Shown: positions 4,030-42,465, counted from the stretch's first letter. The stretch is 42,465 bases of DNA from Dehalococcoidales bacterium (GCA_002688105.1 NZBQ01000011.1:2754-45218); one strand, 5' to 3'. The notes: generated by a model from the sequence alone, not told the origin. Translations and numbers: made by a program.

Positions 4030-4057
4030 ATGCCCCCTTTGGTGGCTTTGACGACTA

Positions 4058-5449
4058 TCAGGTATGCTGCAGGTCAGTAGTTACCCTTTGGAGGGCTTGA
4101 AGCACGACCTCATCCTCTTCAGGAAACACGGAGCGTGGGTCGAGAAGCAAAACATTATCACTTATTCGTCCTACGACTGGTATCTCTTGACAACACAGCC
4201 TTTGGCTTAATGTTTGAGCTATATTTTGGTGTTTTCTTTTCTCGGCTTCTCCCACGGTGACGAGCCTGGTGGGCAGGGTATCTCCGGGCAAGCTGCCGCC
4301 CCCTATCATAGTCTCCCCCTCCACCACTCTGGCCAAGCCTTGGAGAGGTTGAGCCCATAATCTGGCTCTCCGGTCAATATCTTCCAGAGAAGCTGAAATC
4401 ATGCGCCATACCGGGATTTTGTTTACCGCTTCATCCTTCAGGTAGTGAATTAAAGTAGCGGCTAGGCCGGCCAGCCTTATCTTGTCAATTCGCACTGCCC
4501 GTGCCAGCGGGTGTTTCTTTAATTTATCAATAAGTTGTTTCCTGCCGACAATAATGCCGGCTTGAGGACCACCCATAAGCTTATCACCAGAGAAGAGGAC
4601 CAGCCCAGCGCCAATGGCAACGCTTTGTGGTACCATTGGCGCTGGGTCGAGTCCGAATCTGGTCGTGTCCAGGAAACTGCCGCTGCCCAGATCATCAAAT
4701 ACCGGTAGCTCATAGTGTTTGCCCAGCGTTACTAACTCGTCAAGGGTAACAAAGTGAGTGAAACCCATTAGCCTGAAGTTGCTGGAGTGAACACGCATTA
4801 AGGCTGCTGTCCGTGGGTTAATCGCCTGTTCGTAGTCAGTGATATAGGTGCAGTTGGTGGTTCCTACCTCAATTAGCTTCACTCCACTTTGGCGCATGAC
4901 ATCGGGGATGCGAAAACCGTCACCAATCTCCACGGCTTGACCCCGGGAAACAATTACCTCCTTCTTTTTAGCTAGTGCGGTAAGGACTAGCAGCACCGCT
5001 GAGGCATTGTTGTTTACTACCAGCGCTGCCTCAGCCCCGGTTAGCTGGCAAAGAACCGGCTCAAGGTGAGTATTGCGGGAACCCCGTTTTCTACTATCGA
5101 AGTCAAGCTCCAGGTTGCAGTAGCCCTTAGCCATCGCCTCCATAGCGGCTATGGCTTCTTGGCTGAGTGGAGCACGCCCCAGATTGGTGTGGAGTATGAC
5201 GCCGGTAGCATTAATTACGGGGCGCAGGGTGGGGCTTGCTAAGGCGCGTACCTGGGTACAAATAGATTCCGCTATTTCACTAACGGACGGGCACGGGTTG
5301 CTGGCAGCGATAGATAAGCGTACCTGTTGCAGATACCGGCGGATAAAATCCACTATCAAGGTATGAGGATAGTTCTGCTGAAGTTGCCTGATACGCTCTT
5401 CGGAGAGCAGTCTATCCACGCTGGGAAGGTTACGAAACTCTTTGTCCAT
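4058..5449 (-). CDS. selA: L-seryl-tRNA(Sec) selenium transferase
   Basis: 463 aa; RPVINATGVILHTNLGRAPLS...NNNASAVLL...GDKLMGGPQAGIIVG, typical SelA. Confidence 0.96.
   Translation of the reverse strand: MDKEFRNLPSVDRLLSEERIRQLQQNYPHTLIVDFIRRYLQQVRLSIAASNPCPSVSEIAESICTQVRALASPTLRPVINATGVILHTNLGRAPLSQEAIAAMEAMAKGYCNLELDFDSRKRGSRNTHLEPVLCQLTGAEAALVVNNNASAVLLVLTALAKKKEVIVSRGQAVEIGDGFRIPDVMRQSGVKLIEVGTTNCTYITDYEQAINPRTAALMRVHSSNFRLMGFTHFVTLDELVTLGKHYELPVFDDLGSGSFLDTTRFGLDPAPMVPQSVAIGAGLVLFSGDKLMGGPQAGIIVGRKQLIDKLKKHPLARAVRIDKIRLAGLAATLIHYLKDEAVNKIPVWRMISASLEDIDRRARLWAQPLQGLARVVEGETMIGGGSLPGDTLPTRLVTVGEAEKRKHQNIAQTLSQRLCCQEIPVVGRISDNVLLLDPRSVFPEEDEVVLQALQRVTTDLQHT
4604..4646. repeat. Perfect 14-bp inverted repeat inside selA
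   Basis: CCCAGCGCCAATGG (4604-4617), 15-nt spacer, CCATTGGCGCTGGG (4633-4646). Confidence 0.85.
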
Positions 5450-5514
5450 TGCGCTTACGGTATTTTAATATATCTAGGCTAACTTTAAAAGCTACCATAC
5501 CAGTCCGAAACGTG

Positions 5515-5554
5515 CCATTGTGAGAGATTACCATGCCTTCGGCTCGCAATGACG
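5515..5554. repeat. Degenerate copy of a REP/MITE-like intergenic repeat
   Basis: CCATTGTGAGAGATTACCATGCCTTCGGCTCGCAATGACG, near-palindromic CATTGtGAG/CTCGCAATG ends, in the selA-selD intergenic region. Resembles common 'cattgcgag...ctcgcaatgacg' dispersed repeats; only one copy noticed here. Confidence 0.4.
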
Positions 5555-5680
5555 AAGAGAGGAGGTCATGTGTTACTAATCATATGAACCAGTACGCGGC
5601 TTTGCCCTTTTAACCAGAGAATGCTAAAATACCAGATGGAACTGGAGTCTAATCTGCAGTTTCAGTAGTGGAGGCGTTAA

Positions 5681-6730
5681 ATGGATAAGAGGGTAAATCC
5701 TCGCTTGACTGAAACCGTTAGTGGGTCTGGCTGAGCTTCCAAGATAGGTCCGGGAGACCTAAACAAAGCCATGTGCGTCCTACCTGAGATGTCTGACCCC
5801 AATCTGCTTGTAGGATTAAGGAGTCCAGATGATGCCGGCGTCTACCAGCTAACCGATGACCTGGCTATCATCCAGACCATAGATTTCTTCACGCCTATAG
5901 TAGATGACCCTTACACTTTTGGTCAGATTGCTGCTGCTAATGCCTTGAGTGATGTCTATGCTATGGGTGGCAAGCCACTGACAGCTATGAATGTAGTCTG
6001 CTTTCCGATAAAGTCTATGGATATTTCCGTCTTGCAGGACATCCTTAAAGGTGGGGTGGATAAGATGCTTGAGACAGGGGTGTTACTGGTGGGGGGACAT
6101 AGTGTGGAGGATAACGAGCTCAAATATGGGCTTTCTGTTACCGGTACCGTGCATCCCAAACGGCTGGTAACTAAGTCCGGGGCTAAAGCAGGAGATAAAT
6201 TGATACTTACTAAACCGCTGGGAACCGGTATCATAAGCACTGCGGTGAAAGCTGAAATGGTTGACGAAGAGACGGTAGTCAGGCTTACAAAGTGTATGGC
6301 AACGCTGAATAACAAAGCCTCAGAGTTGATGCAGGAGGTAGGGATTCATGCCGGCACTGATATTACTGGTTTTGGATTTCTCGGGCACACCACCGAACTG
6401 GCTCAGAACAGCCAGGTTGGTATCAATATCTCCTCTACTTCAATTTCTTTCTTGCCGAGAACAGAAGAATTTGCCCAGCAAGGATTATGCCCGGGTGGGC
6501 TGCGCCGGAATAGAGAGTTCTACTCCACGGCGATAACAATTGCCAGCGAGGTGCCCCTTCATATAAAGGACATCCTGTTTGACCCCCAAACCTCCGGGGG
6601 ATTGCTAATCTGTCTGGCTCCCGGGAAAGCTGAACTTTTGCTAGACAGCTTGCGACAGGCAGGTGTGGAAGATGCCACTGTCGTTGGAGATGTGGTCAGC
6701 GAGCCAAAAGGGACGGTTACGGTAAAGTAG
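5681..6730 (+). CDS. selD: Selenide, water dikinase SelD, selenocysteine-containing (UGA at 5732-5734)
   Basis: ATG 5681: MDKRVNPRLTETVSGSG-U-ASKIGPGDLNKAMCVLPEMSDPNLLVG..., reading UGA through at the conserved Cys/Sec position (G-[C/U]-x-x-K). The rest is a canonical SelD. The track ORF starts downstream at 5771. Confidence 0.95.
5735..5772 (+). promoter_or_regulatory. Candidate bacterial SECIS hairpin of selD
   Basis: Just 3' of the UGA: AGGTC-CGGGA-GACCT perfect stem (5746-5760), with G in the short apical loop and possible outer GCTT/AAGC pairing. Confidence 0.6.
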
Positions 6731-10686: not shown

Positions 10687-10769
10687 TTTATGCTCCTCTT
10701 TTATATAATTGCTTATTGACTATACTTCACCTTCCCCAAATAAAAAGAGGTTAACCTACACTAAGCAGG

Positions 10770-10972
10770 TTAACCCCTGTCCTTTTGCCTGAGAGATTGC
10801 CCGCCACTATGTTTGCGGCCTTACTCCTTCGGCGCCCTCATCTGGGGTCTCTCCAGAGGTTTTGCTTGCGGTAGTCCTTTTGCCTGAGAGTTTCAAGCCA
10901 CAGAGCCTGTACTCTATGTCTCTTTCACCTTCGGCTCCCTGTACAGGGTATCTCCTACCGTAAACCGTCTAT
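10770..10972 (-). promoter_or_regulatory. Tandem glycine riboswitch (two aptamers)
   Basis: On the minus strand, two copies of 'CTCTCAGGCAAAAGGAC...' elements plus 'CGCCGAAGGAG' / 'GAGCCGAAGGTGAAAGAG' cores, directly upstream of gcvH. Confidence 0.9.
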
Positions 10973-26041: not shown

Positions 26042-26854
26042 CTACTCTGTAAAGTGTCCCGCTATACCAGTGCCAGCGGATGGAGACCTTCTGACCTGTA
26101 TTATCTCCGCCAGGATGCTGATGGCTATCTCCTCGGTAGTTTGGGCGTGTATGTTAAGACCAATCGGGGCATGGACTCTGTCCAGCTGCTTCTGGGAGAT
26201 TCCTTGGGCTAGTAAGTTAGAGAAGACGATTTGATTTTTGGCTCGGCTGCCTATCATGCCGATATACTTCGCCTCGGTAGCCAGAGCCCCTTCCAGCACA
26301 GCTTCGTCACCCGCATGACCGTGGGTAACAATCACTATGTAGCTCAATTTATTTATCTTTAGTTTTTGGAACGATTTAGCAAAGTCTTCAGTCAGGGTTA
26401 GCTCTGCTTCGGGGAATCTCTCGGGGTGGGCGAATTCAGGTCGGTCGTCGATTACCGCTATTCCGAAGCCTATCATCTTTCCCATCTTTGCCAGGGTAAT
26501 AGCTATATGACCGCCGCCAAAGAGATACAGGGTGGGCGGTGATAGTATTGGTTCGATAAAAATCTCGGTGTCCCCGCCATATATCGTCCCCAGCTCCCCT
26601 CCCTCTTTTAAGCTAAAACATAGTCGCTGTGGTTCACCCTTTCTTATTACCTCCACCGCTTCCTCGATGACCTGCGCTTCTATTTTGCCACCACCAATGG
26701 TGCCCATTATACTGCCGTCAGCTCTGACTAGTATCTTGGCGTCTTCTTCTCTGTGAGTGGAGCCCTCGGCGGCGGCTACGGTAACCAGTGCCGCCTCTTC
26801 TCCCTCGGCTTTAATTCTGACTACTTCCTGGTCTATGTCGGTTATGTCTGTCAT
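26042..26854 (-). CDS. XdhC family protein
   Basis: 270 aa; VTVAAAEGSTHREEDAKILVRADGSIMGTIGGGKIEAQVIEEA; C-terminal Rossmann LYLFGGGHIAITLAKMGKMIGFGIAVIDDRPEFAHPERFP. Confidence 0.92.
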   Translation of the reverse strand: MTDITDIDQEVVRIKAEGEEAALVTVAAAEGSTHREEDAKILVRADGSIMGTIGGGKIEAQVIEEAVEVIRKGEPQRLCFSLKEGGELGTIYGGDTEIFIEPILSPPTLYLFGGGHIAITLAKMGKMIGFGIAVIDDRPEFAHPERFPEAELTLTEDFAKSFQKLKINKLSYIVIVTHGHAGDEAVLEGALATEAKYIGMIGSRAKNQIVFSNLLAQGISQKQLDRVHAPIGLNIHAQTTEEIAISILAEIIQVRRSPSAGTGIAGHFTE

Positions 26855-27645
26855 CTGACCTCCATTGAAATAACTTCAATCACCGGCTGTGGTAATTGAG
26901 CTTGCCCCAGTACAACCTGCTTAATCTGAGGGTGCTTTACGGCTAAAATCTTACTGGCTAAGTCCCTTGCCTTGGCTAAATCTTTGTCTATATCCACTTT
27001 ATTGATGAAGGGGACGATTCTCGCCCGGTCCGGGCTTCCCTTAATTATACCCTGGGGGTGAGTCATTAGAGTGGCGATGGACTCGGCTGAGATGACTTCA
27101 CCTAGCGGCAGCCCGAGCAATTTGGAGACGATCTGGGGGCGGAAAACATTTTCTTCGGTGAGACGGCTGCCCAGGGCGTCGAGGCCAACTATCGGTATGA
27201 CCAGAGACGTGTTAGATGGGATTACCGGCTCAGTGGGATTGGGTGCCTTCAAGGATTTGCGAGCCGCCCCATCGGCTTCTACGATAATATAAGATAGCCG
27301 GTTTACTTTGGCTAACCTGCTGACTAACTCTGGACTGATTCCATTCAACTTCCCTGAAGTTAATTTCTCACTGGCCAATGTGATATGCCGGTACCTGTTC
27401 ACATTCTCTAGCAGCAACCTTATCATCTCTTCCTCGTCTGCTTCTAGGAGGAGCAGTGGGGTTTGGGATGGTAACGGCTCAAAAATCTTGGTGGTGGTAG
27501 TAGTAATGACGGAGCTGCCAATTGAAGCTAATTCCTGAGCTAGAGCGAACATAAGGGTTGTCTTACCCCCGCCACCAACCAGGCTTATTACCTCTCTTTG
27601 ATGGATGCCAAAGGCTTGCCTGAGACTGTTAATAGTTTGTGCCAA
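26851..27645 (-). CDS. yqeC: Selenium-dependent hydroxylase accessory protein YqeC
   Basis: 264 aa; ISLVGGGGKTTLMFALAQELASIGSSVITTTTTKIFEP...YIIVEADGAARKSLKAPNPTEPVIP; 4-bp overlap with xdhC. Confidence 0.92.
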   Translation of the reverse strand: MAQTINSLRQAFGIHQREVISLVGGGGKTTLMFALAQELASIGSSVITTTTTKIFEPLPSQTPLLLLEADEEEMIRLLLENVNRYRHITLASEKLTSGKLNGISPELVSRLAKVNRLSYIIVEADGAARKSLKAPNPTEPVIPSNTSLVIPIVGLDALGSRLTEENVFRPQIVSKLLGLPLGEVISAESIATLMTHPQGIIKGSPDRARIVPFINKVDIDKDLAKARDLASKILAVKHPQIKQVVLGQAQLPQPVIEVISMEVR

Positions 27646-28265: not shown

Positions 28266-29073
28266 AGTTTTCCTCCCTGTTGAAATGGCATAATATCGCC
28301 TCCAGGACTCCTCCAGCAATGGCTCTAGCTTTGTCTGAGACGGTGAAACAGTGCCCTTCAATTCCCCGGGGGTCAACATCTCCTGTTTTCATTCCCTGGT
28401 GTACCTTGGTTCCATCTCTCAAAAGTCCTCGAATGACACCCTCCACCTGGGCTTCGACCGGAGAATCATCAACCAGAGCAACCGCTTCGCCGGCTTGAAC
28501 CCGGTCTCCAATTTTTTTCTTAGTTGAAAATCGACCAGCCTTGGGGGCACGAAACACCCTTTCCGCAGAAACCCCGGCGATTACTCCGGGAATGCCCGTA
28601 TTCGCCTCTGCCTCCCCCTTAAAAATTACTTTGCCCAGATTATGACCACGGTTAGTCTCGATTACCATATGAACATCTTTATCGGTTTGGAAGCCGGGGC
28701 CAAGCCCGATTACCAGAGAAGCATCGGATATTTTGGTTCCTAGATTCTTTTTGGCTAGTATGGCATCAACTAGAACATCGGGTTTCAGAATGTCTTTAAC
28801 CTTAGTCTCCGGGTCAATTAAGAGCGGCACCTTACCCTCTTTCCATACCTGAAAGATATCATCAGGAGAATAAATAAGCTTGGCTACCACTCCTTCAATC
28901 TCTTTTTCGCCATCATAAACTGCCTCGCAAAAGGCAACACCTCTCCTTACCGCTTGAGGATTGGGTATTTCGGTTATGCAGACCTTAAAGTGAGAACAGG
29001 CTAACCGGTGGGCAACTCCACTGGCCTGTTCTCCTCCGCCTTTGATGAGAACTACCAGCTCACTTAATTTCAT
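28255..29073 (-). CDS. yqeB: Selenium-dependent molybdenum hydroxylase system protein YqeB
   Basis: Likely start ATG 29073 (MKLSELVVLIKGGGEQASGVAHRLACSHFKVCITEIPNPQAVRRGVAFCEAVYDG); GLGPGFQTDKDVHMVIETNRGHNLG. Confidence 0.93.
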   Translation of the reverse strand: MKLSELVVLIKGGGEQASGVAHRLACSHFKVCITEIPNPQAVRRGVAFCEAVYDGEKEIEGVVAKLIYSPDDIFQVWKEGKVPLLIDPETKVKDILKPDVLVDAILAKKNLGTKISDASLVIGLGPGFQTDKDVHMVIETNRGHNLGKVIFKGEAEANTGIPGVIAGVSAERVFRAPKAGRFSTKKKIGDRVQAGEAVALVDDSPVEAQVEGVIRGLLRDGTKVHQGMKTGDVDPRGIEGHCFTVSDKARAIAGGVLEAILCHFNREENYGH

Positions 29074-29931: not shown

Positions 29932-31002
29932 TCACCCACTATCTTGACCTTCAAAAACTCTTATCCTTCTCAGCTTTAATATTAAGAAGACTTCCTTACC
30001 TACCGTTAAGTCCATATCTTCAAAAATGTCACGGGGCATTTCTGCCTGTAGGGTATTCCCTCCTACCTTAACCTTAAGCCTTACTGTAGCGCCGGAGGTT
30101 TTAATATTGGTGATAGTTCCCTTAAATCGGTTAACCTGTGGCCCGGGTGGTTTAGTTTCAGAAATATAAATATCGCGTGGGAAAAGGGCAATTCGTCTAA
30201 CCGTATTTCCCTCATGGGGTATAATAATGGGCAACCCGCTACTTTTAACCTCTGTTAGTCCTTGCCCCAGTGTGCGGCAGTGTTCACACTCTAAGATATT
30301 TGGTGTGCCAATAAAATCAGAGACTATTTCACTCTGAGGGTAAAAGAATATCTCATCCGGTCTACCTACCTGTTCCAACCTACCCTTATCGAGAATACCA
30401 ATTCTGTCGGCCATTTCTTCAGCTTCTATCTGGTTATGGGTTATATGTAGAGTAGTAACCCCTAGCTCCTTATGGAGATGTCGTAAATCAGACCTTAAGT
30501 ATTTAGCTGTTTGTAAATCCAAGGCGCTTAGCGGTTCATCCAGAAGCAGAATCTTTGGAGTAAGAGCTAAGGATCGAGCTAGGGCTACCCTTTGTTTTTC
30601 TCCTCCGCTCAGGGAGCGTATGCCCCGATTTAGTAAATAGGAGACGCCCAGTAGATTGGCTAAATTTTTCACCCGCTCCTGAACTTCAGCTTTCGAGTAT
30701 TTTGTTTGTCTTAATCCGAAGGCAATATTCTCGGCTACATTTAGAAAAGGAAATAATACATAATCTTGAGGCACATATCCTATATTCCTTTCCTCTGGTG
30801 TCAGATGAGTAATCTGGTTTTTATCTACCCATATCTCTCCGTGTTTGATACGATGAAGCCCAGCAATGCACTCGATGAGGACGGTTTTCCCGGCTCCGTT
30901 TGGCCCCAAGATAACAAAGTATTCTCTATCATCAATAGTTAGGTTTATATCTTCTAGGCAGAAATCTCCTAAATTTGTGGAAAGATTTTTGATTTCAATC
31001 AT
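29932..31002 (-). CDS. modC: Molybdate/tungstate ABC transporter ATP-binding protein
   Basis: 356 aa; LGPNGAGKTVLIECIAG, LSGGEKQRVALARSLALTPKILLLDEPLSALD, C-terminal TOBE-like domain; operon with permease and binding protein. Confidence 0.88.
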   Translation of the reverse strand: MIEIKNLSTNLGDFCLEDINLTIDDREYFVILGPNGAGKTVLIECIAGLHRIKHGEIWVDKNQITHLTPEERNIGYVPQDYVLFPFLNVAENIAFGLRQTKYSKAEVQERVKNLANLLGVSYLLNRGIRSLSGGEKQRVALARSLALTPKILLLDEPLSALDLQTAKYLRSDLRHLHKELGVTTLHITHNQIEAEEMADRIGILDKGRLEQVGRPDEIFFYPQSEIVSDFIGTPNILECEHCRTLGQGLTEVKSSGLPIIIPHEGNTVRRIALFPRDIYISETKPPGPQVNRFKGTITNIKTSGATVRLKVKVGGNTLQAEMPRDIFEDMDLTVGKEVFLILKLRRIRVFEGQDSG

Positions 31003-31808
31003 AGCGGATACCTTCTACCGATGATTTTCCTGATAGCAAGTAAAGCAACTACAGCAATTATTATCAGCACCAAAATCACGGCTATTGCCTTTTCTATGTC
31101 AGCAGTAGCCAAGCTAAGAAAAATAGCAGTTGGTAAGGTCTCTGTCTTCATAGCAGTTGCCCCAGCCAGGGTAACGGTGGCACCAAATTCTCCTACGGCT
31201 CTGGCCCAGGTGAGAATGGCGGAGGCTATTAAACCATCTTTAGCTAAAGGTAAGGTAACTCTAAAAAATACCTCCGGTTTGCTACAGCCCAATGTTCTAC
31301 CTACCTGCTCATATCTGGGGTCAATACTATCAAAGGTAGACTTTAAGAGTCGGATAGCTAGAGCACTAATAACTATGATTTGAGCTAGGATTATACCCGG
31401 TACCGCAAAGACAAATTTCATTATATTATTATCAATCCCGCCACCTATTTGGGTATTGAAAAAGACCAGCAGTACCGCACCTAGCGCTATAGGAGATATG
31501 ACAATGGGCAAGTCAAGCATGCTATCAACTATATTCTTCCCGGGAAATTCTGTCTGAGAGATTGCGTAAGCTACTGGAACTGCAATTAGTATTGAAATAA
31601 TGGTAGCTACAGTAGCGGTGGAAAGACTTAGCCTGATGGCAAAGAGGATTTCCTCCGAAAGGATGGCAGACACAAAGGTATTCCAGTCAGTATAGGTGAG
31701 TACAGATACTACTATACCTACGAGGAATATGGTTAATAGGGCTAGAGCGCTGACGGTTGCTCCTTTAAATGCTCTCTCACCACCAACGCCTTTTAAAACT
31801 TTGAACAT
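30999..31808 (-). CDS. modB: Molybdate/tungstate ABC transporter permease
   Basis: 269 aa; multiple TM segments; RTLGCSKPEVFFRVTLPLAKDGLIASAILTWARAVGEFGATVTLAGATAMKTETLP. Confidence 0.88.
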   Translation of the reverse strand: MFKVLKGVGGERAFKGATVSALALLTIFLVGIVVSVLTYTDWNTFVSAILSEEILFAIRLSLSTATVATIISILIAVPVAYAISQTEFPGKNIVDSMLDLPIVISPIALGAVLLVFFNTQIGGGIDNNIMKFVFAVPGIILAQIIVISALAIRLLKSTFDSIDPRYEQVGRTLGCSKPEVFFRVTLPLAKDGLIASAILTWARAVGEFGATVTLAGATAMKTETLPTAIFLSLATADIEKAIAVILVLIIIAVVALLAIRKIIGRRYPL

Positions 31809-31831
31809 ATATTCTACCTTCGAATAGGTTT

Positions 31832-32683
31832 CTATTTGACCAGGGGTTCATATGTCTCAGGGAGTTTATACTCTCCGCCTATTTTAGCCTCGGGAGCAAA
31901 GTTTCGGGCTTCGTTTTCAGTAGCGATATATCCCCACTTACTGAAAATCTTTTGGCCTTGTGGTGAGGCTAAAAAGTCTAAGAATTTCTGTGTGCTCTCA
32001 TTGTCCTCGGTAAATGTAGATATTGCTCCCGGTATATAGGAAAGCCTTGGAATTTGCTCCGGCTTGAGGTAAGCTACGCCTAGTGTATCAGGGTCCCATT
32101 TGGAGAAAACTCGCCAGCCGATAATGACATCTACCGTTTTCAAGGCTACTAGACTGACAATCTTTGAATAACTTTCGCCATAGGTAACGATATTTTCTCC
32201 TACCTCCTCTAGAAGGTTATTATGCTTCAGTATTTCATAGGCATACAAGCCTATGCTAACTGATTCAGGGTCTGCTATCCCAACCTTGATTCCTGGTTTG
32301 GTCAGGTCAGACAGGCCCAGTATATTCTTGGGATTGCCTTCTTGAACCAGAATGGCTGGAACCAGGTAGGAAATTATCTTCAACGACTCAGGGTCAATCA
32401 CGCTATTCCTTTCTGCCATAGCCATATAATCAGGAGAACCGGGGATATATAAATCGCCACTCTTAGATAATTTCATTTGCGACAGCATGGTTCCCGAGCC
32501 ACCGAAATTAAGGTAAACTTTTATTCCAGTCTCTTCCTCAAATGTTTGAGCGGCTTCTTCCATGGCCGGCTTGCTGGCAGACCCACAAAAAGCAGTTATC
32601 GTTTTCTGTTCTCCATTGGTACATCCGCCAATAGGAATAAGCACCAGTAATCCTACTAAGAGTAAAGCGAATAACTTTTGCAA
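31832..32683 (-). CDS. modA: Molybdate/tungstate-binding lipoprotein
   Basis: 283 aa; lipobox LIPIGGC; ITAFCGSASKPAMEEAAQTFEEETGIKVYLNFGGSGTMLSQM...GDLYIPGSPDYM. Confidence 0.85.
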   Translation of the reverse strand: MQKLFALLLVGLLVLIPIGGCTNGEQKTITAFCGSASKPAMEEAAQTFEEETGIKVYLNFGGSGTMLSQMKLSKSGDLYIPGSPDYMAMAERNSVIDPESLKIISYLVPAILVQEGNPKNILGLSDLTKPGIKVGIADPESVSIGLYAYEILKHNNLLEEVGENIVTYGESYSKIVSLVALKTVDVIIGWRVFSKWDPDTLGVAYLKPEQIPRLSYIPGAISTFTEDNESTQKFLDFLASPQGQKIFSKWGYIATENEARNFAPEAKIGGEYKLPETYEPLVK

Positions 32684-32714
32684 TTTTGCCTTTTACCTGT
32701 CATGCTTAATAGGA

Positions 32715-32736
32715 GCTATATTGCATGAGATATAAC
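32715..32736. promoter_or_regulatory. Candidate ModE-like operator
   Basis: Imperfect palindrome GCTATAT-N8-ATATAAC between the modE-like stop and the modA start; resembles the E. coli ModE half-sites (TATAT-rich with CG/GC flanks). Confidence 0.45.
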
Positions 32737-32750
32737 ACCCCGCAAAAAAA

Positions 32751-33137
32751 TTATCCTATCGGCTGTAGAAATTCCTCGAATTTAGCACGCAGCTTCTTAT
32801 ACTGTCTAACCGCTTTTCGTCCCTCCTCGGTTAATCTGGCATATCCTCCCCCAGCCCCGCCAGCGGTTTTCTCAACCAGAGGAACCGGCGCCAGACGATT
32901 CATGGCTTCTATCCAAAGCCAGGCATTGCGGTAGCCTAACTTCATGGACCGGGCTGCCGCCGCTATCGAGCCAAACCTGTCAATGCGCTCTAGTAGCATG
33001 GCTCTCCCCCATCCCATGTACAGCTCGCCGTCCTTCTCCACCCATATTCTGCCTCTTAATGTGTAGCCTGGCTCTGGGTGGTGGGCAAAACGGGAGGGCT
33101 TCCCGGCTCTAAACCTTGGTATCTTTATCTCGGTCAC
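32751..33137 (-). CDS. ModE-like winged-helix regulator (DNA-binding domain only)
   Basis: 128 aa; MGWGRAMLLERIDRFGSIAAAARSMKLGYRNAWLWIEAMNRLAPVPLVEKTAGGAGGGYARLTEEGRKAV, typical ModE HTH; no molybdate-binding C-terminal domain. Confidence 0.88.
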   Translation of the reverse strand: MTEIKIPRFRAGKPSRFAHHPEPGYTLRGRIWVEKDGELYMGWGRAMLLERIDRFGSIAAAARSMKLGYRNAWLWIEAMNRLAPVPLVEKTAGGAGGGYARLTEEGRKAVRQYKKLRAKFEEFLQPIG

Positions 33138-33230: not shown

Positions 33231-33809
33231 TCAGTCAAGGAGGGATTGATAATCATTTATAGTATCAATATCGGTGACAATGCTTTCAGAGTTAACGGTT
33301 ACCTCAAGAATGTCACCGGGATGGTCTTTTACTATCTGTCTTCCCCCGATATCACCCTTTAGCCCTAGTAGTTTCTCTCTATATTTGATAGTAAAGATGG
33401 TCGGGTGTCCTCTCCTACCCTGATATGTCGGGATGACGATGCCTTTATCGTGGTTGTAGAATGCCTCTATCAATCGGTTGATGGTCTGACTGTTTATAAG
33501 TGGCTGGTCACCTAAGATGAGCATCACCGCTTGGGTTCGGCTATCAATCAGGTTTAGCCCGGCTATTATAGAGGTGCTCATCCCCTGCTCGTAATCTGGA
33601 TTTACCACCAGCTTGACTGGTTTAGCGGCTATGGTCTTTATTACCTCTTCAGCTCTATATCCCAGCACTACGATAGTCTCATCCACTACGGAATTCAGCA
33701 GGTTATCAATGGCTTGTTCCACGATAGTGTTTTGGCCAAAGGGCATTAACTGTTTCAGCTTGCCCATTCGCTTTGACTCGCCGGCAGCTAGCAGTATGGC
33801 TGATATCAT
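33231..33809 (-). CDS. mocA: Molybdenum cofactor cytidylyltransferase / MobA-like NTP transferase
   Basis: 192 aa; ILLAAGESKRMGKLKQLMPFG...NPDYEQGMSTSIIAGL...LILGDQPLI...GRRGHPTIF. Confidence 0.88.
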   Translation of the reverse strand: MISAILLAAGESKRMGKLKQLMPFGQNTIVEQAIDNLLNSVVDETIVVLGYRAEEVIKTIAAKPVKLVVNPDYEQGMSTSIIAGLNLIDSRTQAVMLILGDQPLINSQTINRLIEAFYNHDKGIVIPTYQGRRGHPTIFTIKYREKLLGLKGDIGGRQIVKDHPGDILEVTVNSESIVTDIDTINDYQSLLD

Positions 33810-34121
33810 TATGGTTTTTCCCTTATTGGTGAATGCTCATATTAGCACTAGACTGCGTGTAAATCAAATTTACTTTCGTTCTTCCAGTCCTGAAGATAGG
33901 CAAGAGTCGGTAGCCAGAAGGAGGGGGTATGTCGCCAATTTTATGAACCCGTTTACCTATTTGACAGAGGGAGGGGCATTCGTTATAATCTCAGATTTAG
34001 AGGGTTGAAAAATTTAACGTCTCATAGGCGAAAGGGAGTAAGTTGGTATGATATGAGCTGAAGAGCATCTATCATAGAACAGAGGAGAACCGACGCTGAT
34101 ATCATTAGGAAGGAGGGAAGA

Positions 34122-34781
34122 ATGGACAGAGAACAGGGACTATTGAAGGCTCTACAGGAAGCGGTCATTAGTGGTGACCCTCGGAACACAGAACAAGTGG
34201 CGAAGAAGGCTGTCAAAGAAGGTATCGATCCATTGCTTGCCCTGGAAGAGGGATTGGGCAAAGGGATTAGTACTGTTGGAGACTGCTTCGGAGCAGGTAC
34301 GATGTTCCTACCTGAGCTGGCTACCGCTGCCGATGCCATGCAGGCGGGAACCAAGATTTTCGTGGAGGAGCTTAAAAAATCGGGGGTAGAGAGAAAAGTG
34401 GTGGGCAGGGTCGTGATAGGAACTGCTGCCGGGGATGTCCATGACATTGGCAAGACCCTCGTGGCTACTATGCTTGTGGTCAACGGTTTTGAGATATACG
34501 ACTTAGGAACTGATAACTCAGCGAAGAAGTTCGTAGAAGCAGTGCGGCAGTACCAGCCTGATATCGTGGGTATTTCAGCCTTAATAACCACTGCCATGGT
34601 CGGCCAGAGGGATGTACTGGAAGCCCTTGCCGAATATAACCTTCGTTCAAAGGTTAAGGTTATAGTAGGAGGCGGCCCGGTAACCGCTGAATGGGCTGAG
34701 CAGATTGGAGCCGACGGCTACGCAGTGAATGCTGTTGAAGCGGTCATAACAATCAAGGCTTTGATGGGAATTAATCAGTAG
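34122..34781 (+). CDS. Methyltransferase cognate corrinoid protein
   Basis: 219 aa; N-terminal helical cap, GDVHDIGKTLVATMLVVNGFEIYDLG cobalamin-binding motif. Confidence 0.95.
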   Translation: MDREQGLLKALQEAVISGDPRNTEQVAKKAVKEGIDPLLALEEGLGKGISTVGDCFGAGTMFLPELATAADAMQAGTKIFVEELKKSGVERKVVGRVVIGTAAGDVHDIGKTLVATMLVVNGFEIYDLGTDNSAKKFVEAVRQYQPDIVGISALITTAMVGQRDVLEALAEYNLRSKVKVIVGGGPVTAEWAEQIGADGYAVNAVEAVITIKALMGINQ

Positions 34782-34795
34782 GGAGGGAAATAGAA

Positions 34796-36226
34796 ATGAC
34801 ATTAGCCGGTTTTACTTGTAAAAACCCCATCGAATTACTTACCCAGGACGAAAAGGAGGCCATCCATGAGAAGACCCTGGAGATTCTCAAGAACACGGGC
34901 GTTGTGTTTAAGTGGGAACCAGCGCTTAAGGTTCTCAAAGGGGCTGGCTGCAATGTGGATTTTGAGAGCCAGAGAGTGAAGTTCCCCCGAGATGTCGTTG
35001 AGGGTGCTCTCAAGAGTTGTCCCAGCAGTTTTAGAATTAAGGCCAGAGATCCTAAGTATGACCAAGAATTCACGATGGATAGGGTCTATTTTGTTAACCA
35101 AACTGGCCCAGCTATATATGATTTCGATACTGGTGTTAGAAGAGGCGCAACAGTTAAGGATTTATCTGAAATAACCCGTATCTGCGACGCACTAGAAAAT
35201 ATACATGGTGTGAATCCGCCAAATTTGGGTGTCGCCGACCGACCCCCGGAAGTCGGTTTTGAATGGGCAACGGCGGCGATGATAAGAAATAGTACCAAAG
35301 GGGCGTGGACGGCTTCGGGCGTTTTTACAGTGCAATGGCTTATTGAGATGGCCAAAGCTGCTGGAATACAAATGTTAATTGCTACCACCTGTGAATCTCC
35401 ATTAACCTATCCGGCTGACCAATGCGATGCAATAATGCGCATTGCCAAAGAAGGATGGGGTATGTTTACCGACACCGGAGGGGAATGTGGTGCTAGCTCG
35501 CCAGCAACTCTGGCTGGTACTGTGTTGCAGGTAAATACTGAGCTTATGGCCGGTCTGGTCCTTCAACAGGTGGTGAATCCAGGTGTTGGTTTTTTGCGTG
35601 TCACCATGGCCACCCCTATGGATATGCGCAACGGGTATTATGCCATTGGAATAGAAGGATACATGCTTGCCGCAGCTAATGCCAGCATGTCAAGGTTCTA
35701 TAATATACCCAGCGCTAGTTTCGATAGCCTCACCGGAGGTAAATTGCCTACGGATCAGCAGGTCGGATATGAGAAAGCGATGTCTTACTTACTGCTGGCG
35801 CAAGCGGGGGTGGGTTATATCATTGGTGCCGGCGGAATTGATGATGAAGCGTGTGTATCCATTGAACAAATAGTTATTGATAATGAGATGTTCGGCATGA
35901 TTGGTCGATACCTGCAGGGGATTACGGTAAACGAGGAGACATTAGCCGCTGACATCATACAGAGGGTAGGTCCTATTCCAGGAAACTTCTTGAAGGAAGC
36001 ACACACCAAAAAGTGGTGGAGAGAGGAACAGTATTTACCGACTCTTAACTATCGGCTATCCTATAAAGAATGGATACGAGATGGATCGAAAGATGTTGCT
36101 GCCCGGGCCAGGGAAAGGGCCCAGGAGATACTCAGAATTCATGAGGTCCCGCCACTGCCTGAGGATGCGGACCGTGAGATTTCAAGGATACTTGAGGCTG
36201 CAGAGAAGGAGAAACTCGATAAATAG
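34796..36226 (+). CDS. MttB (trimethylamine methyltransferase) superfamily protein, non-pyrrolysine
   Basis: 476 aa; HEKTLEILKNTGVVF...GGKLPTDQQVGYEKAMSYLLLAQAGVGYIIGAGGIDDEACVSIEQIVIDNEMFGMI; no in-frame TAG. Confidence 0.93.
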   Translation: MTLAGFTCKNPIELLTQDEKEAIHEKTLEILKNTGVVFKWEPALKVLKGAGCNVDFESQRVKFPRDVVEGALKSCPSSFRIKARDPKYDQEFTMDRVYFVNQTGPAIYDFDTGVRRGATVKDLSEITRICDALENIHGVNPPNLGVADRPPEVGFEWATAAMIRNSTKGAWTASGVFTVQWLIEMAKAAGIQMLIATTCESPLTYPADQCDAIMRIAKEGWGMFTDTGGECGASSPATLAGTVLQVNTELMAGLVLQQVVNPGVGFLRVTMATPMDMRNGYYAIGIEGYMLAAANASMSRFYNIPSASFDSLTGGKLPTDQQVGYEKAMSYLLLAQAGVGYIIGAGGIDDEACVSIEQIVIDNEMFGMIGRYLQGITVNEETLAADIIQRVGPIPGNFLKEAHTKKWWREEQYLPTLNYRLSYKEWIRDGSKDVAARARERAQEILRIHEVPPLPEDADREISRILEAAEKEKLDK

Positions 36227-36292
36227 ATTGCTGAAGGAGGGTCGGCCCAATCCCGGTGGTGTACCTCTGGGAAAAGGCTTACCCTGCTTGAC

Positions 36293-36329
36293 AAGGGCGT
36301 TAAGAAACATTACACTATGTCTCGCCCTT
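36293..36329. repeat. Inverted repeat / hairpin
   Basis: AAGGGCG (36293-36299) and CGCCCTT (36323-36329), 23-nt loop, downstream of the mttB-family gene. Confidence 0.5.
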
Positions 36330-36396
36330 CTTGGTTTTCCAGCAAACGGTAGGTAAGTTTTTCAAGAGAGAAGACCGCTACCAGAGAACTACAAGT

Positions 36397-36426
36397 GAAA
36401 TCACCCCAAAGTATTTATGTGATTTC
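36397..36426. repeat. Inverted repeat
   Basis: GAAATCAC (36397-36404) and GTGATTTC (36419-36426), 14-nt spacer, intergenic. Confidence 0.5.
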
Positions 36427-36540
36427 GTGAGCTAGTGAAGGAACCTGTTTGGGTGAATCTTTCTGGAAATGAAAAGAGTTGCAGCGTCATATAGCTACCT
36501 TTAGTGCTGTAGCCCTGAATATAAGCCAAAAAATTTCTTT

Positions 36541-36587
36541 AAGGGGCTCAGATACCTGAAGTATCGGTGTATCGTTGAGCCCTTTAG
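36541..36587 (+). terminator. Hairpin, possible terminator or attenuator
   Basis: AAGGGGCTCAGATAC...GTATCGTTGAGCCCTTT long imperfect stem upstream of the Mo hydroxylase genes. Confidence 0.4.
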
Positions 36588-36659
36588 AGTTTATTAAGGC
36601 GGTTGGTCACGATTATTGGGTTAGCTGGTAGGGTAAATAATAGCAGGGAGATGACAAGT

Positions 36660-37529
36660 ATGGGATTTCAAACGCAACCAAAAGAGTTTGAATATATGGC
36701 TCCAGCGAATTTGGAGGATGCGTCTAAGTTATATTTGAGTTATGGTGAGAAGGCTTGTATCCTTGCTGGTGGCACTGATATCGTGCCATTAATGAAGCGT
36801 GGATTGCTGGCGCCGGAATGTGTGATTGATATCACTAAAATTCCTGATATGAGCTATATTCGCCTTGAGGACGGTGTATTGAAGTTAGGTGCTTTGACCA
36901 CTATCGAAGATTTCAGGGAATCGCCTCTGATAGAGCAGAATTACCCGGCTCTACATATGGCGTCAGAGGTAATGGGCTCGACTATAATTCGCAACCTGGC
37001 CACCGTTGGTGCCAATATATGCAGAGCTTCCCCGGCATCTGATATGGCGCCTCCTTTAGTGGTTCTGGGGGCTAATCTTAGAATATTTGGCCCCAAGGGG
37101 GTAAGGACTACGCCGATTGAAGATTTCTTCCTGGGTTTCGGAAGGTCAGAGATGGCGGCGGGTGAAATTTTGTGTGAGATTGAGGTTCCAGCATCACCTG
37201 ATAAGCAAGCGTTTATGAAACTGAAGAGGACAAAAGAGGACCTTGCTAAAATAAATATAAGCACCGCGTTTAATCTCTCTGATGATAAGTGTTCCGGTAT
37301 TAAGATAGCTCTGGGCAGTGTTGCCCCAAAGGTGGTGAGAGCTGAAAAAACTGAGAAATTCTTGGAAGGTAAAGAATTAAGTGAGGCCAACATAGAGGAA
37401 GCGAAGCGAATTATTTGCCGGGAAATAAACCCAATTGACGATGTTCGTTCCACAGCAGAGTATCGGATGGAGATGAGTAAAGTCTTATTGGGGCGAGTTA
37501 TCAGGTTAGCCTTGAAGGGAGGATGGTGA
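36660..37529 (+). CDS. Molybdenum hydroxylase FAD-binding subunit (XdhB/CoxM-like)
   Basis: Likely start 36660 (AGGGAG RBS); FEYMAPANLEDASKLYLSYGEKACILAGGTDIVPLMKRG...TIRNLATVGANICRASPASDMAPPLVVLGA. Confidence 0.93.
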   Translation: MGFQTQPKEFEYMAPANLEDASKLYLSYGEKACILAGGTDIVPLMKRGLLAPECVIDITKIPDMSYIRLEDGVLKLGALTTIEDFRESPLIEQNYPALHMASEVMGSTIIRNLATVGANICRASPASDMAPPLVVLGANLRIFGPKGVRTTPIEDFFLGFGRSEMAAGEILCEIEVPASPDKQAFMKLKRTKEDLAKINISTAFNLSDDKCSGIKIALGSVAPKVVRAEKTEKFLEGKELSEANIEEAKRIICREINPIDDVRSTAEYRMEMSKVLLGRVIRLALKGGW

Positions 37530-37533
37530 AAAA

Positions 37534-38013
37534 TTGGCTGGAAAATTTAGCACAGACATCACCTTGAAGGTAAATGGCAGGCAGCATGGTCTGGAGGTTA
37601 GGAATAATTGGACGTTACTCCAGGTTCTGCGGGAAACCCTTGACGTAACCGGGGTAAAGTGTGGCTGTAGCACTGGTGACTGTGGTGCTTGTACTGTGCT
37701 GATGGATGGGAAGGCCATTCCGTCCTGTCTTGTTTTAGCACCACAGTCTGACAGAAAAGAGATTATAACTGTGGAGGGGTTAGCTGAGGGGGGTATTCTT
37801 GATCCTTTGCAGGAAAAGTTTGTGGCAAAGGGGGCGTATCAATGTGGCTTCTGCACGCCTGGAATACTCATGTCGTTAAAAGCGCTGCTGTCTAAAAAAC
37901 CAGAGGCTACTCAGGATGACGTGAAGAGAGTACTGGATGGGAATTTATGTAGGTGTGGGGCTTATGTCAGGATATTAGAACTATTCCCTAGGGGGAAGAC
38001 TAATGAAAAGTGA
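37534..38013 (+). CDS. Molybdenum hydroxylase 2Fe-2S subunit (XdhC/CoxS-like)
   Basis: 159 aa; CGCSTGDCGACTVLMDGKAIPSCL and CGFCTPGILMSLKALL...GNLCRCGAY. Confidence 0.95.
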   Translation: MAGKFSTDITLKVNGRQHGLEVRNNWTLLQVLRETLDVTGVKCGCSTGDCGACTVLMDGKAIPSCLVLAPQSDRKEIITVEGLAEGGILDPLQEKFVAKGAYQCGFCTPGILMSLKALLSKKPEATQDDVKRVLDGNLCRCGAYVRILELFPRGKTNEK

Positions 38014-40282
38014 AAATATTATAGTAGGTAAGAGCATTCCCAAGCGTGAAGCTCTTGACAAGATAACCGGAAAGGCTGTCTTTATCGCCGATGTTAAGCT
38101 GCCCGGAATGCTATATGCCAAGATGCTGTACTCTCCCCATCCTCACGCCCTGGTGCAGGAGATAGACGTTAAAAGAGCTGAGAAAATGTCCGGCGTAAAG
38201 GCTATTATCACCGCCAAAGATGTACCTGATAAATTTTTTTATTCCCAAGATATGAGACCATGTTATCCTCTGAATGACCATGTTCGTTGTGTTGGTGATG
38301 CGATTGCGGTGGTAGCGGCGGATACCGAGGAAATAGCGGAGAAGGCGGTAGGGCAAATAGAGGTTAAGTATGAAGTTCTGCCGTCGGTAACCGATGCTGA
38401 GGAAGCGATGAAGCCCGATGCCCCTAAATTATATCCCGAAGGAAACATATGCGACCTTGAAGGGGAGCCTGAAATGCTGGAATGGGGTGATGTCGAGGAT
38501 GGCTTAAAGGAAGCGGACTTCATTGCTGAAGGCACCTTCCGGATGCCGAAGGTTCTACATGCGGCGATAGAGCCTAGGGGATGCGTGATTAAGTGGGACG
38601 AAGACAAGTTAAATGTCTGGGCGGCGTCTCAGGTGCCATTATTCCTTAGAAACGCCCTGGCTGATTATTTTGAGATTCCGGTTAATGATGTCATGGTAAA
38701 GGTAGGTAACTTGGGAGGTGGGTTTGGGGGCAAGAAAGACGAGCAATATTACGCCATCGTAAGTTTGGTAGCCAAGAAGTGTGGTTGTCCGGTGAAGTTT
38801 ATCTACACCAGGGACACCGACACTATGATGACGGCTCGCTGGGGGGTGGTAATTAGAGCCAAGGTTGGGGTTAAGAAAGACGGGACCATAACCGCCATTG
38901 ATTTATACCAGGTTTACGATGTGGGTGCTTATGGGAGTCCCGAGGGCGGAAGCGGCTCTACCATGGGATTAGTTAATGTTGCCCTTTATAAGACAGATAA
39001 CTGTCGGGTAAAGGCATACAATGTCAATACTAACACGGTTACAACACAAAAGCTTCGCTCGGTATATGTACCGACCTATCGGTTTTCGGTAGACCAGCTT
39101 ATGGATGAGGTTGAAGAGTGGCTGGGTATGGAGTCCGGGGAGCTCAGGCTGGATAAGAATACCAGGCCTGGCGAAAAGATACAACCTTACGGTAATATCA
39201 TGGATAATCATGCCATGGACATATGTTTGAAGAAGGCTAAAGAAGCGGTGGGGTGGTCTGAGAGATGGAAAGGGTGGGGTAAACCGATAGCTATTGAAGA
39301 GACAAAGCGTAGAGGGCTGGGTATCGGTTTTGGCACCGGATGGTGTGATTGGTACCGTGACCATCATAAAGGGACAATCGTGGAGTTTCATCCCGATGGA
39401 AAAGTGGTATTAACCACCGGAGTAACCGATATCGGGACGGGTAATCTGACGTCCATTTCCCAGATAATAGCTGAGGTGCTTGGTTTGTCTTCGGTGGAAA
39501 ACTTTGAAGTTAGATCCCCCAATACTACGGGAACAGTTGACGATATGCCTTATGACCGTGGCACCCTTGCCAGTAGAACCCTGTTTGTGGGGGGTTGGGC
39601 TGGTCGGCTGGCGGCTGAAGAAGTTAAGCGAGAATTGCTTAAACTAGCTGCGGCTGAACTCCATCTGGACCCCTCGGAACTGGACATCTATGATAATGTG
39701 ATTTTCAGCAAGAAGGACTCGATGAAGAAGGTTAATTTGAAAGGCTTGATAACCGAGCCGGTAGTGGGCAGGGCTGCTCCACCGCCGCCGAAGGTTATAG
39801 GCAGAGCGAAACGCTATGAATATTATGTGGCGCCGGTAGAAGTCCATATTGCCGAGGTTGAGGTAGATACTGAGACCGGGGAGACTAAGGTAGTCAACTT
39901 TGTGGCGGCACATGATATCGGTAAGGCGATAAACCCTCAGATTGTGGAGAATCAGATATGTGGTGGGGTAATTCAGGGGATAAGCTTTTCTCTATATGAA
40001 GAGTTAATATTTGATAGGGAACAGAATATTTATCTCAACCCTGATTTTATGGACTATAAAATAGCTAATATAGGTGATATACCTTCGATTAAAGTGATAC
40101 TTATTGAGGAGGCACCGGCGAGCTTTGGTCCGTTTGGGGCTAAAGGTATCGGGGAGCATCCGGTGCCAACGGCTTATGCTGCCATTGCCAATGCGGTATA
40201 TAATGCGGTAGGCATCAGGCCCAAGGAGACGCCGATAACACCGGAGAGAATGCTTAAGTGGCTGAAAGAGAAAAAGAAGTAG
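38003..40282 (+). CDS. Molybdenum hydroxylase molybdopterin-binding subunit (XdhA/CoxL-like)
   Basis: 759 aa; KITGKAVFIADVKLPGMLYAKMLYSPHPHALV, GNLGGGFGGKKDEQYY, C-terminal FGPFGAKGIGEHPVPTAYAAIANAV with the catalytic Glu region. Confidence 0.94.
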   Translation: MKSENIIVGKSIPKREALDKITGKAVFIADVKLPGMLYAKMLYSPHPHALVQEIDVKRAEKMSGVKAIITAKDVPDKFFYSQDMRPCYPLNDHVRCVGDAIAVVAADTEEIAEKAVGQIEVKYEVLPSVTDAEEAMKPDAPKLYPEGNICDLEGEPEMLEWGDVEDGLKEADFIAEGTFRMPKVLHAAIEPRGCVIKWDEDKLNVWAASQVPLFLRNALADYFEIPVNDVMVKVGNLGGGFGGKKDEQYYAIVSLVAKKCGCPVKFIYTRDTDTMMTARWGVVIRAKVGVKKDGTITAIDLYQVYDVGAYGSPEGGSGSTMGLVNVALYKTDNCRVKAYNVNTNTVTTQKLRSVYVPTYRFSVDQLMDEVEEWLGMESGELRLDKNTRPGEKIQPYGNIMDNHAMDICLKKAKEAVGWSERWKGWGKPIAIEETKRRGLGIGFGTGWCDWYRDHHKGTIVEFHPDGKVVLTTGVTDIGTGNLTSISQIIAEVLGLSSVENFEVRSPNTTGTVDDMPYDRGTLASRTLFVGGWAGRLAAEEVKRELLKLAAAELHLDPSELDIYDNVIFSKKDSMKKVNLKGLITEPVVGRAAPPPPKVIGRAKRYEYYVAPVEVHIAEVEVDTETGETKVVNFVAAHDIGKAINPQIVENQICGGVIQGISFSLYEELIFDREQNIYLNPDFMDYKIANIGDIPSIKVILIEEAPASFGPFGAKGIGEHPVPTAYAAIANAVYNAVGIRPKETPITPERMLKWLKEKKK

Positions 40283-40316
40283 ATGCCTTAAATATGATTT
40301 TATGAGGGAAGGTAAA

Positions 40317-41060
40317 ATGGCTGAGGAGAAAGATTTGTATCCATTTGGTTCCGCTCCACTGAATAAAAGGCGTGAGCTTCTCGTCGTACCGCTGGAAAGG
40401 AAGCTCGTTTATGAGGAGGTGGTTTTTCCCAAGACTGGTTTTGCTAGGATAGTTAAAAGGGGACAGTATTTTCGTATCGTAGATGTTATGGGGAAACAGG
40501 TGGCAGACCTGGTTCTCTTCAACGCGCATAATACTAAGGAAAAGCATAATAATGGAATATCCATGTCGCGGCAAATGAGACCGGAAGAGGTGAAACCGGG
40601 AGTGCCATACTCGCGGAAGAGTATACTGACTACCAGGGATATCATATTCTCAACCGGGGAACGTCCTATGGCAACCATTGTGGCTGACACCCCGGTTCCC
40701 GGAGGCACACATACACTGGTTGGTCATATGTGTAATCGGGCAATATATGAAATGTATGGTTTCTCTGATCATGATGGTTGCTGGGAAATACTATCTGGAG
40801 TACTGGCTCCATTTGGTATCTCCCCTGAGGAACTTCCGGATGCGTTCAATGTCTTTATGAATGTAGAGTATGAAGCTGTTTCTGGGGAGCGGCATATTAA
40901 AGAGCCGGTCAGTCGACCTGGGGATTACTTCGAGATTCGGCTGGAGATGGATTGTATTGTTGCCTTTTCTAACTGTCCGGAGGATGCGCTTACCCCTTGC
41001 AATGGCTGGAGATGCACGCCGCTTAAGGTAGAAATTTATGAGGCAATAGAAGGGAAATAG
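40317..41060 (+). CDS. DUF1989 (urea carboxylase-associated family) protein
   Basis: FPKTGFARIVKRGQYFRIVDVMGKQVADLVLFNAHNTKEK...PGGTHTLVGHMCNRAIYEMYG...HDGCWEIL...FMNVEYEAVSGERHIKEPVSRPGDYFEIRLEMDCIVAFSNCPED. Confidence 0.88.
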   Translation: MAEEKDLYPFGSAPLNKRRELLVVPLERKLVYEEVVFPKTGFARIVKRGQYFRIVDVMGKQVADLVLFNAHNTKEKHNNGISMSRQMRPEEVKPGVPYSRKSILTTRDIIFSTGERPMATIVADTPVPGGTHTLVGHMCNRAIYEMYGFSDHDGCWEILSGVLAPFGISPEELPDAFNVFMNVEYEAVSGERHIKEPVSRPGDYFEIRLEMDCIVAFSNCPEDALTPCNGWRCTPLKVEIYEAIEGK

Positions 41061-41122
41061 GTAGAGTTCCGAAGCTTTTAAAACTAAGCAGTCTTATCTT
41101 ATTATGAAGAAGGGGGAGACAA

Positions 41123-42465
41123 ATGGCAAAAGAAAAGAAGTTACCCAAACCCAGTGAAGTCCCACCGGTGCCCGGGGCGGAGGACTGGCGGGAAATGTAT
41201 CCCAGTTATTTTACCTTTGATAGCGGAGAGGATAGAAAGATGGCTGAGTGGGAAGGTGGGCAGTTCTGGTATCAGAATAGCCTTCATTTCCCACGGCCAA
41301 TACGTCCTCTGGATGAGACTGTCTGTGGGGGGGACGAGTTGTGGCTGGCGGTAAGTATGAGTCGGGTAGTTGTTTTTCCAGATAGTATGGGGATTCCCTA
41401 CCGGCTGGTGAACGGATATGCATATAACACTTCGATTGTAATTACTGATCCTAAGATAATTGAAGAGCGGCATAAAATCTTTGCGGAGAGGTGGCAGTAC
41501 TACCTTGAGCACTGGGAGGAGCTGGTAAAAAAGTGGGAAAAAAATATGAGGGCAACCATAAAAGAGTTAGAGCAAATACACTTCCCTGACCTTCCTGAAA
41601 TCGATGATATGTCGCGAGTCACTGACATCAATGCCAATACCGCCTATGATGTGCTGAGCACCAATCATAACCTCTGGCGGTTGACGGATAGAGTAGGGGC
41701 TCATCACTTTGAACTGTTTAATGTACCCTATGGTCAATTCTTGGAGCTATATCTATTTGGGCAGAAGCACGGTTTTGCCGAATTGTGTCGGGAGTTGACC
41801 AAAGGCTTGAAACCTCTGGTACTTGAGCCTGAGGAGAGGTTAAAAGATTTGGCCCGCCTGGCGGTCAAGCTTAGCCTTCAGGATGTTTTCAATGACCACA
41901 GGGGGAGCGAGGTTTTTACGGTGTTGGGCAAGAGTGATAAGGGTAGAGAGTGGATGAAGAAGTTTGATGAGTTCAAGTACCCCTACTTTCTGGCGCCTGA
42001 GTCTCAGGGCTTATATATTGATGAGAAACCCTGGATAGATGACCCGGTTACTCTTTTTGAAAACATAAGGAACTTCATAGATAAGCTTGATAAGGGTGAA
42101 AGCATTGAGAGAGATGTAGAAGGTCTGCTAAGAGAGCGGGATGAGATGACTGAAAAGTGCCGCCAAATGATAAAAACCGATGAAGATAGGAAGGAATTCG
42201 ATAAGCTTCTGGGAGAGACGAGGAAGGTTGCACATTTTTCAGAGGACCATAATTTCTTCATTGAATTCTGGGCTTATGGACTAGTGAGAAAGAAAGTAGT
42301 TGAGTTGGGCGAGTGGTTGTGCCGGCATAAAATTATAAATGAACCTGAAGACATATATTTTTTCGTGAGGTATGAATTAGATGAGGTAATATTTGATGTC
42401 TGTCAGGCGTGGGGTGTAGGCATACCGGTGAAGGATATTTACTGGAAGAAGAAGGTGGCCAAGAG
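41123..42465 (+). CDS. Partial PEP-utilizing-enzyme-like protein (rifampicin phosphotransferase / PEP synthase middle-region type), runs off the window end
   Basis: Open frame from ATG 41123 to the edge: ...QNSLHFPRPIRPLDET...GIPYRLVNGYAYNTS...RVTDINANTAYDVLS...AHFSEDHNFFIEFWAYGLVRKKVVELGEWLCRHKIINEPEDIYFFVRYELDEV. The EDHNF and EPEDIYFF-ELDEV pattern is typical of the region before the His swivel domain. Missing from the ORF track because it has no stop. Confidence 0.6.
   Translation, partial: MAKEKKLPKPSEVPPVPGAEDWREMYPSYFTFDSGEDRKMAEWEGGQFWYQNSLHFPRPIRPLDETVCGGDELWLAVSMSRVVVFPDSMGIPYRLVNGYAYNTSIVITDPKIIEERHKIFAERWQYYLEHWEELVKKWEKNMRATIKELEQIHFPDLPEIDDMSRVTDINANTAYDVLSTNHNLWRLTDRVGAHHFELFNVPYGQFLELYLFGQKHGFAELCRELTKGLKPLVLEPEERLKDLARLAVKLSLQDVFNDHRGSEVFTVLGKSDKGREWMKKFDEFKYPYFLAPESQGLYIDEKPWIDDPVTLFENIRNFIDKLDKGESIERDVEGLLRERDEMTEKCRQMIKTDEDRKEFDKLLGETRKVAHFSEDHNFFIEFWAYGLVRKKVVELGEWLCRHKIINEPEDIYFFVRYELDEVIFDVCQAWGVGIPVKDIYWKKKVAK

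Follow-up and report, generated by a model that had tools for sequence, protein, structure and literature searches.

The known substrates of corrinoid-dependent demethylation of the MttB type include methylamines and such quaternary amines as betaines, carnitine and choline; DUF1989 proteins have as relatives the carboxyguanidine deiminases and a domain of the TMAO demethylase; the characterised selenium-cofactor hydroxylases act on nicotinate, xanthine and purine. Co-occurrence of the genes yqeB, yqeC and selD is a marker of the selenium-cofactor trait (PMC2276186, PMC11448449). PpsAB, CreHI and HpeHI are two-component dikinases that phosphorylate aromatic hydroxyls, PpsA, CreH and HpeH acting on phenols; the PpsA-type protein is the substrate and swivel half of the enzyme (PMC12167813).

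The window (the whole stretch analysed, 42,465 nucleotides; G000:C11:2754-45218) belongs to a 1.33 Mb, 46-contig, 91% complete bacterial genome. A corrinoid protein, an MttB-family methyltransferase, a three-subunit Mo hydroxylase, a DUF1989 protein and a PEP-utilising protein are encoded at 34122-42465, all on the + strand, as the preliminary description had listed them; every reading frame is intact and the key residues are in place, and Pfam cut-offs were exceeded by wide margins. Intergenic gaps, from the corrinoid gene to the PEP-utiliser: 14, 376, 4, −11, 19 and 62 bases; the genes had been called closely spaced, which is true of the gaps of 62 bases or less and fails for the 376 bases between MttB and the FAD subunit. 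A promoter-like site (TTGACA-17-TATAAT, 12/12, consensus match only) was located at 33961..33989 (+), and the corrinoid gene starts ca. 130 bases after it; the 3' limit of the set in the window is the end of the contig, not of the operon. The G+C content is 0.47 in the cluster and 0.47–0.49 in the rest of the genome sampled; recent horizontal acquisition therefore finds no support in base composition.

Roles were assigned to the genes by homology, and we infer a single pathway, its order of steps and its substrate class: the set is tentatively read as one composite cluster for the anaerobic catabolism of an N-methylated nitrogen compound that is cyclic and probably heteroaromatic, a reading to which slightly less than an even chance is given. 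A Bmp-type ABC transporter would import the compound; MttB would take the methyl group from a cationic N-methyl nitrogen, the corrinoid protein would accept it, and from there it would pass to the folate/CODH-ACS pool; ring hydroxylation would fall to the Mo hydroxylase, which may have a labile selenium ligand; a PpsA/HpeH-type protein, charged by a PPDK-type ATP-grasp neighbour, would phosphorylate a ring hydroxyl or enol; a PreA-like protein would reduce a ring double bond, and a C-N hydrolase and the DUF1989 protein would release nitrogen. The reading draws on the gene content, the intact key residues, a unique 99-base contig overlap, the kinship with PpsA and the selenium-cofactor markers, as well as on partial associations that recur in genome G447, in Thermomicrobium and on contigs C12 and C6 of the window genome. 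If a methylated ring is the substrate, MttB chemistry would be extended to heteroaromatic N-methyl compounds and a defined gene set would be available for testing; trigonelline and methylated purines are named as candidates only. The more specific proposal of a new anaerobic pathway (corrinoid N-demethylation of a heteroaromatic cation, selenium-dependent Mo hydroxylation, PpsA-type/PPDK-type phosphorylation and reductive ring opening) is considered unlikely.

Corrinoid protein (34122..34781, +): MtbC/MtgC-like, TIGR02370 216.8 bits (cut-off 215.3), B12-binding 93.5 bits and B12-binding_2 59.7 bits (Pfam), with the cobalt-ligand motif D105-x-H107-x-x-G. Its gene adjoins that of MttB at 14 bases, as a cognate partner does in the MttB superfamily. 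The methyltransferase (34796..36226, +; PF06253 273 bits, cut-off 25) carries Leu312 at the pyrrolysine column and no in-frame amber codon, and a pyrrolysine enzyme is thereby ruled out, as had been stated earlier. The same Leu stands in MtgB (2qne, 9yce); MtgB and Pyl-MttB (7xcl) further share with the window protein the fold (AlphaFold model, TM 0.90 to both 7xcl and 2qne) and the adjacent corrinoid protein, but the window MttB is only ca. 30% identical to them and falls in a separate clade of 14 rows (support 100/100), of which it is the deepest member and in which no characterised enzyme stands. The expectation that it would not group with a characterised clade is borne out for the glycine betaine and Pyl enzymes, the tree being one built without carnitine or proline betaine references and with MtcB, MtpB and MtyB left out. 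The nearest relative in the class searches was 42% identical, plasmid relatives were at most 31% identical and thus uninformative, and the only locus detected when genome contigs were scanned for MttB was a distant one (28%).

One RACo (corrinoid reactivator) gene of the genome lies on contig C6. Contig C44 holds a CODH/ACS-type cluster with a Pterin_bind protein (the cluster was recognised by eye); with this methyltransferase it is a possible C1 sink for the methyl group, in agreement with the earlier suggestion that methyl removal feeds C1 metabolism.

The 376-base gap behind MttB contains a sigma70-like promoter-like site at 36288..36316 (+; 10/12, consensus match only), so that coupling of demethylase and hydroxylase is plausible at most; together with gaps of 196 and 301 bases around the transporter binding protein gene further downstream, it makes several transcripts possible. 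These gaps count against the composite cluster, and the first of them, with its site, favours the strongest rival explanation, in which two independent units lie side by side by chance or convenience: the corrinoid protein and MttB for an ordinary quaternary amine, the hydroxylase and the downstream genes for an unmethylated purine, pyrimidine or other nitrogen compound. This rival is a serious possibility, though on balance doubtful. The MttB relatives tell in the same direction: clade-mates adjoin corrinoid, RACo and methyl-THF transferase genes (judged from their sequences) and no ring-degradation genes, and four further full-length MttB genes of the window genome stand in varied contexts. 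Against two units speak the common strand and order of the genes and two other loci of the same genome. On contig C6 (L136 8701-14015), the gene of a Mo hydroxylase large subunit immediately precedes that of a URO-D protein, RACo follows, and the contig end cuts the locus; a second Mo hydroxylase thus stands beside corrinoid-system genes, and the association noted earlier between a corrinoid demethylase and a Mo hydroxylase gains support from this locus. On contig C12, MttB, a corrinoid protein, a C-N hydrolase and related Bmp permeases are found together.

The Mo hydroxylase has the composition of the xanthine dehydrogenase family, i.e., FAD, two [2Fe-2S] and a Mo subunit with catalytic Glu: FAD subunit, 36603..37529 (+; PF00941 159 bits, PF03450 89 bits; the true start is perhaps further downstream than 36603); [2Fe-2S] subunit, 37534..38013 (+; all eight ligand cysteines present); Mo subunit, 38003..40282 (+; catalytic Glu718 in GIGE, no clear substrate subfamily). 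The Mo subunit scored under every equivalog cut-off (XdhA 461 bits, cut-off 780) and its best relatives in the phylum were 37–38% identical, so its sequence does not reveal a substrate; the sub-equivalog score also weighs against the composite reading. Divergent from the operon, on the − strand, lie genes for a MocA/YgfJ Mo cofactor cytidylyltransferase (33231..33809; TIGR03310 203 bits, cut-off 186), a ModE-like regulator with a molybdate ABC transporter (29932..33137; ModA 83 bits, cut-off 62.5), the selenium-cofactor maturation marker YqeB (28288..29052; TIGR03309 364 bits, cut-off 220), YqeC (26851-27645; 194 bits, cut-off 73) and an XdhC family factor (26042-26854). tRNA-Sec was found at 360-452 of the same window, with SelB, SelA and SelD nearby (2176-6730), and the organism probably makes selenoproteins. 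The presence of yqeB, yqeC and selD in the window, all over cut-off, is the genomic mark of a selenium-dependent Mo hydroxylase; given the divergent cofactor genes and selD, selA, selB and tRNA-Sec, the window hydroxylase may be selenium-dependent. With the selenium-dependent enzymes for nicotinate, xanthine and purine it shares the three subunits and the accompanying yqeB, yqeC, selD and mocA; it is, however, not close in sequence to any characterised subfamily. A glycine riboswitch aptamer above the gathering score was located at 10767-10866 (−) of the window.

DUF1989 protein (40302..41060, +; DUF1989 130 bits): Cys144, Cys160, Cys225, His157 and Asp228 correspond to the zinc cysteines and proposed iron ligands of Tdm, and the Cys/His/Asp metal ligands of CgdAB and Tdm are thus conserved; in contrast to both systems, the gene is single and stands alone, without neighbouring urea amidolyase or guanidine carboxylase genes. 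The scores lie under both UAAP equivalog cut-offs (UAAP1, 102 bits vs 284.7; UAAP2, 76 vs 206), so that a deiminase activity is possible and no stronger assignment was made. A literature search gave no paper linking DUF1989 to a trimethylamine methyltransferase; in the literature naming trigonelline and corrinoid, neither term stood in title or abstract.

The PEP-utilising protein begins at 41123 (+) and runs to the end of the window at 42465 (first 447 of 607 residues); no Pfam domain was found in this part because the contig ends there. The last 99 bases of the window equal the end of contig C9 exactly and are unique in the genome at 100%; joining the contigs through this overlap gave an unbroken 607-residue protein, 88% identical end to end to a paralogue on contig C7, and contig C9 is accordingly a putative continuation of the operon, the join resting on the overlap. 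The C-terminal part on C9 carries PF00391; the earlier label of a PEP-utilizing-like enzyme is replaced by that of a PpsA/HpeH-type dikinase acceptor subunit. The swivel histidine, the phospho-acceptor, is present as His563 in GGNMCHAA; the residue before it is Cys, as in HpeH, and Ser in PpsA and CreH. Annotated plasmids yielded relatives of the PpsA type, the best being PpsA of Azoarcus sp. KH32C (35% identical over 99%), whose gene is followed there by PpsB, PpsC and phenylphosphate carboxylase genes; the Pps names were read from gene order, the record giving PEP-utilizing enzyme, PEP/pyruvate-binding and CBS domain protein.

Gene order on C9 after the PpsA-type gene: a 189-residue protein, a PPDK-type protein, UPF0261, a Bmp/PnrA-like binding protein (the gene flanked by the gaps of 196 and 301 bases), an ABC ATPase and two permeases; further 3', a PreA-like dehydrogenase, a C-N hydrolase and a weakly ATC-hydrolase-like protein. 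The 189-residue protein matched no family in Pfam or NCBIfam, and its structure prediction was poor (pLDDT 62). The PPDK-type protein (548 residues; TIGR01828 629 bits) comprises ATP-grasp and swivel (with its own His456) and no PEP barrel; it is only 21% identical to PpsB, which is a point against the composite reading, and the ATP-grasp neighbour is thus of PPDK type rather than of the PEP-synthase type of PpsB. With PpsAB, CreHI and HpeHI the window protein shares the 607-residue acceptor subunit and, with HpeH, the Cys-His site; the pair differs from them in its PPDK-type donor and in that no PpsC or carboxylase follows. The gene probably works like a PpsA subunit, but the pair that it forms on C9 is not a standard two-component dikinase; among the dikinases of this kind that were compared, a PPDK-type donor for a PpsA-type acceptor would be unusual. 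Since PpsC and carboxylase genes do not follow on C9, the reading as a true phenylphosphate pathway was discarded. On contig C10, a PpsB-like protein accompanies another PpsA, UPF0261, BKACE and a carboxylase-domain protein.

The phenols on which PpsA, CreH and HpeH act, and the 4-hydroxybenzoyl-CoA reductase that is the closest solved Mo subunit, would suit a lignin-type pathway for a methoxylated or hydroxylated aromatic, in which O-demethylation is followed by PpsA-type phosphorylation of the phenol and the Mo enzyme resembles 4-hydroxybenzoyl-CoA reductase or an aldehyde oxidoreductase. Such a pathway is improbable here: the MttB superfamily is known to act on methylamines and quaternary amines; the cluster showed neither a CoA ligase nor a phenylphosphate carboxylase or MtvB-type gene; and nitrogen compounds are suggested by the genes for DUF1989, the PreA-like protein and the C-N hydrolase. 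The PreA-like protein on C9 is dihydroorotate/dihydropyrimidine dehydrogenase-like with a ferredoxin domain, and E41, K109 and C149 are present in the C-N hydrolase. A nitrogen ring, as the preliminary description had proposed, is favoured by these two genes and the Bmp-type importer on C9 and by yqeB, yqeC, selD and mocA in the window.

Orthologues of the whole gene set were found in none of the sampled genomes of the class (393) or the phylum (331; the two sets overlap), nor were close relatives of the Mo subunit; the best identities in the class searches were 41% for DUF1989 and 35% for PpsA. The conserved five-gene order that had been expected is accordingly seen in no other genome, the orthologues being absent rather than the order broken. 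Flanks of up to ca. 9 kb, where contigs allowed, around 19 Mo-subunit matches in other genomes and one on contig C35 of the window genome contained none of the genes for MttB, the corrinoid protein, DUF1989 and PpsA. The combination of a demethylase with N-ring genes was thus not found in ca. 700 related genomes sampled; its failure to recur is in line with two independent units and, like the clade-mates of MttB, tells against the composite cluster. In favour of the latter, parts of the set recur: in G447, genes for a PreA-like protein and a C-N hydrolase accompany Mo hydroxylases, and Thermomicrobium roseum has PpsAB near a Mo hydroxylase trio.

Contig C7 (L020) carries a second DUF1989-PpsA-Bmp copy, of which ca. 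1.1 kb, within 40744-42420, is identical to the window; beyond this the identity drops to 65–87%, ambiguous bases mark the transition, and the copy is taken to reflect either gene conversion of recent date or chimerism of the scaffold. Isolated fragments of PpsA on contig C5 (L021:9620-10535) and of MttB, with stops, on contig C12 (L022:15507-15658) suggest that such clusters have been duplicated and have decayed in this genome. A decaying or mis-assembled patchwork, in which related PpsA, Bmp and MttB pieces on C5, C7 and C12 were duplicated and partly lost and C9 may have been joined wrongly, would account for these pieces; it is nevertheless very improbable for the window itself, where all genes are intact frames with key residues and the overlap with C9 is exact and unique.

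Contig C35 (L111) has, beside another Mo hydroxylase, hydantoinase-like, carbamoyltransferase, carbamate-kinase-like and allantoate/carbamoyl amidohydrolase genes, a set that resembles the yge/yqe purine region of E. coli. UPF0261 was met repeatedly beside PpsA-type or PPDK-type genes or in their vicinity (L019:11419-12651, L026:3140-4369, L140:4228-5436 and, by eye, L059:2740-3065); a third one on C9 adjoins a 599-residue protein that resembles PEP carboxykinase by eye.
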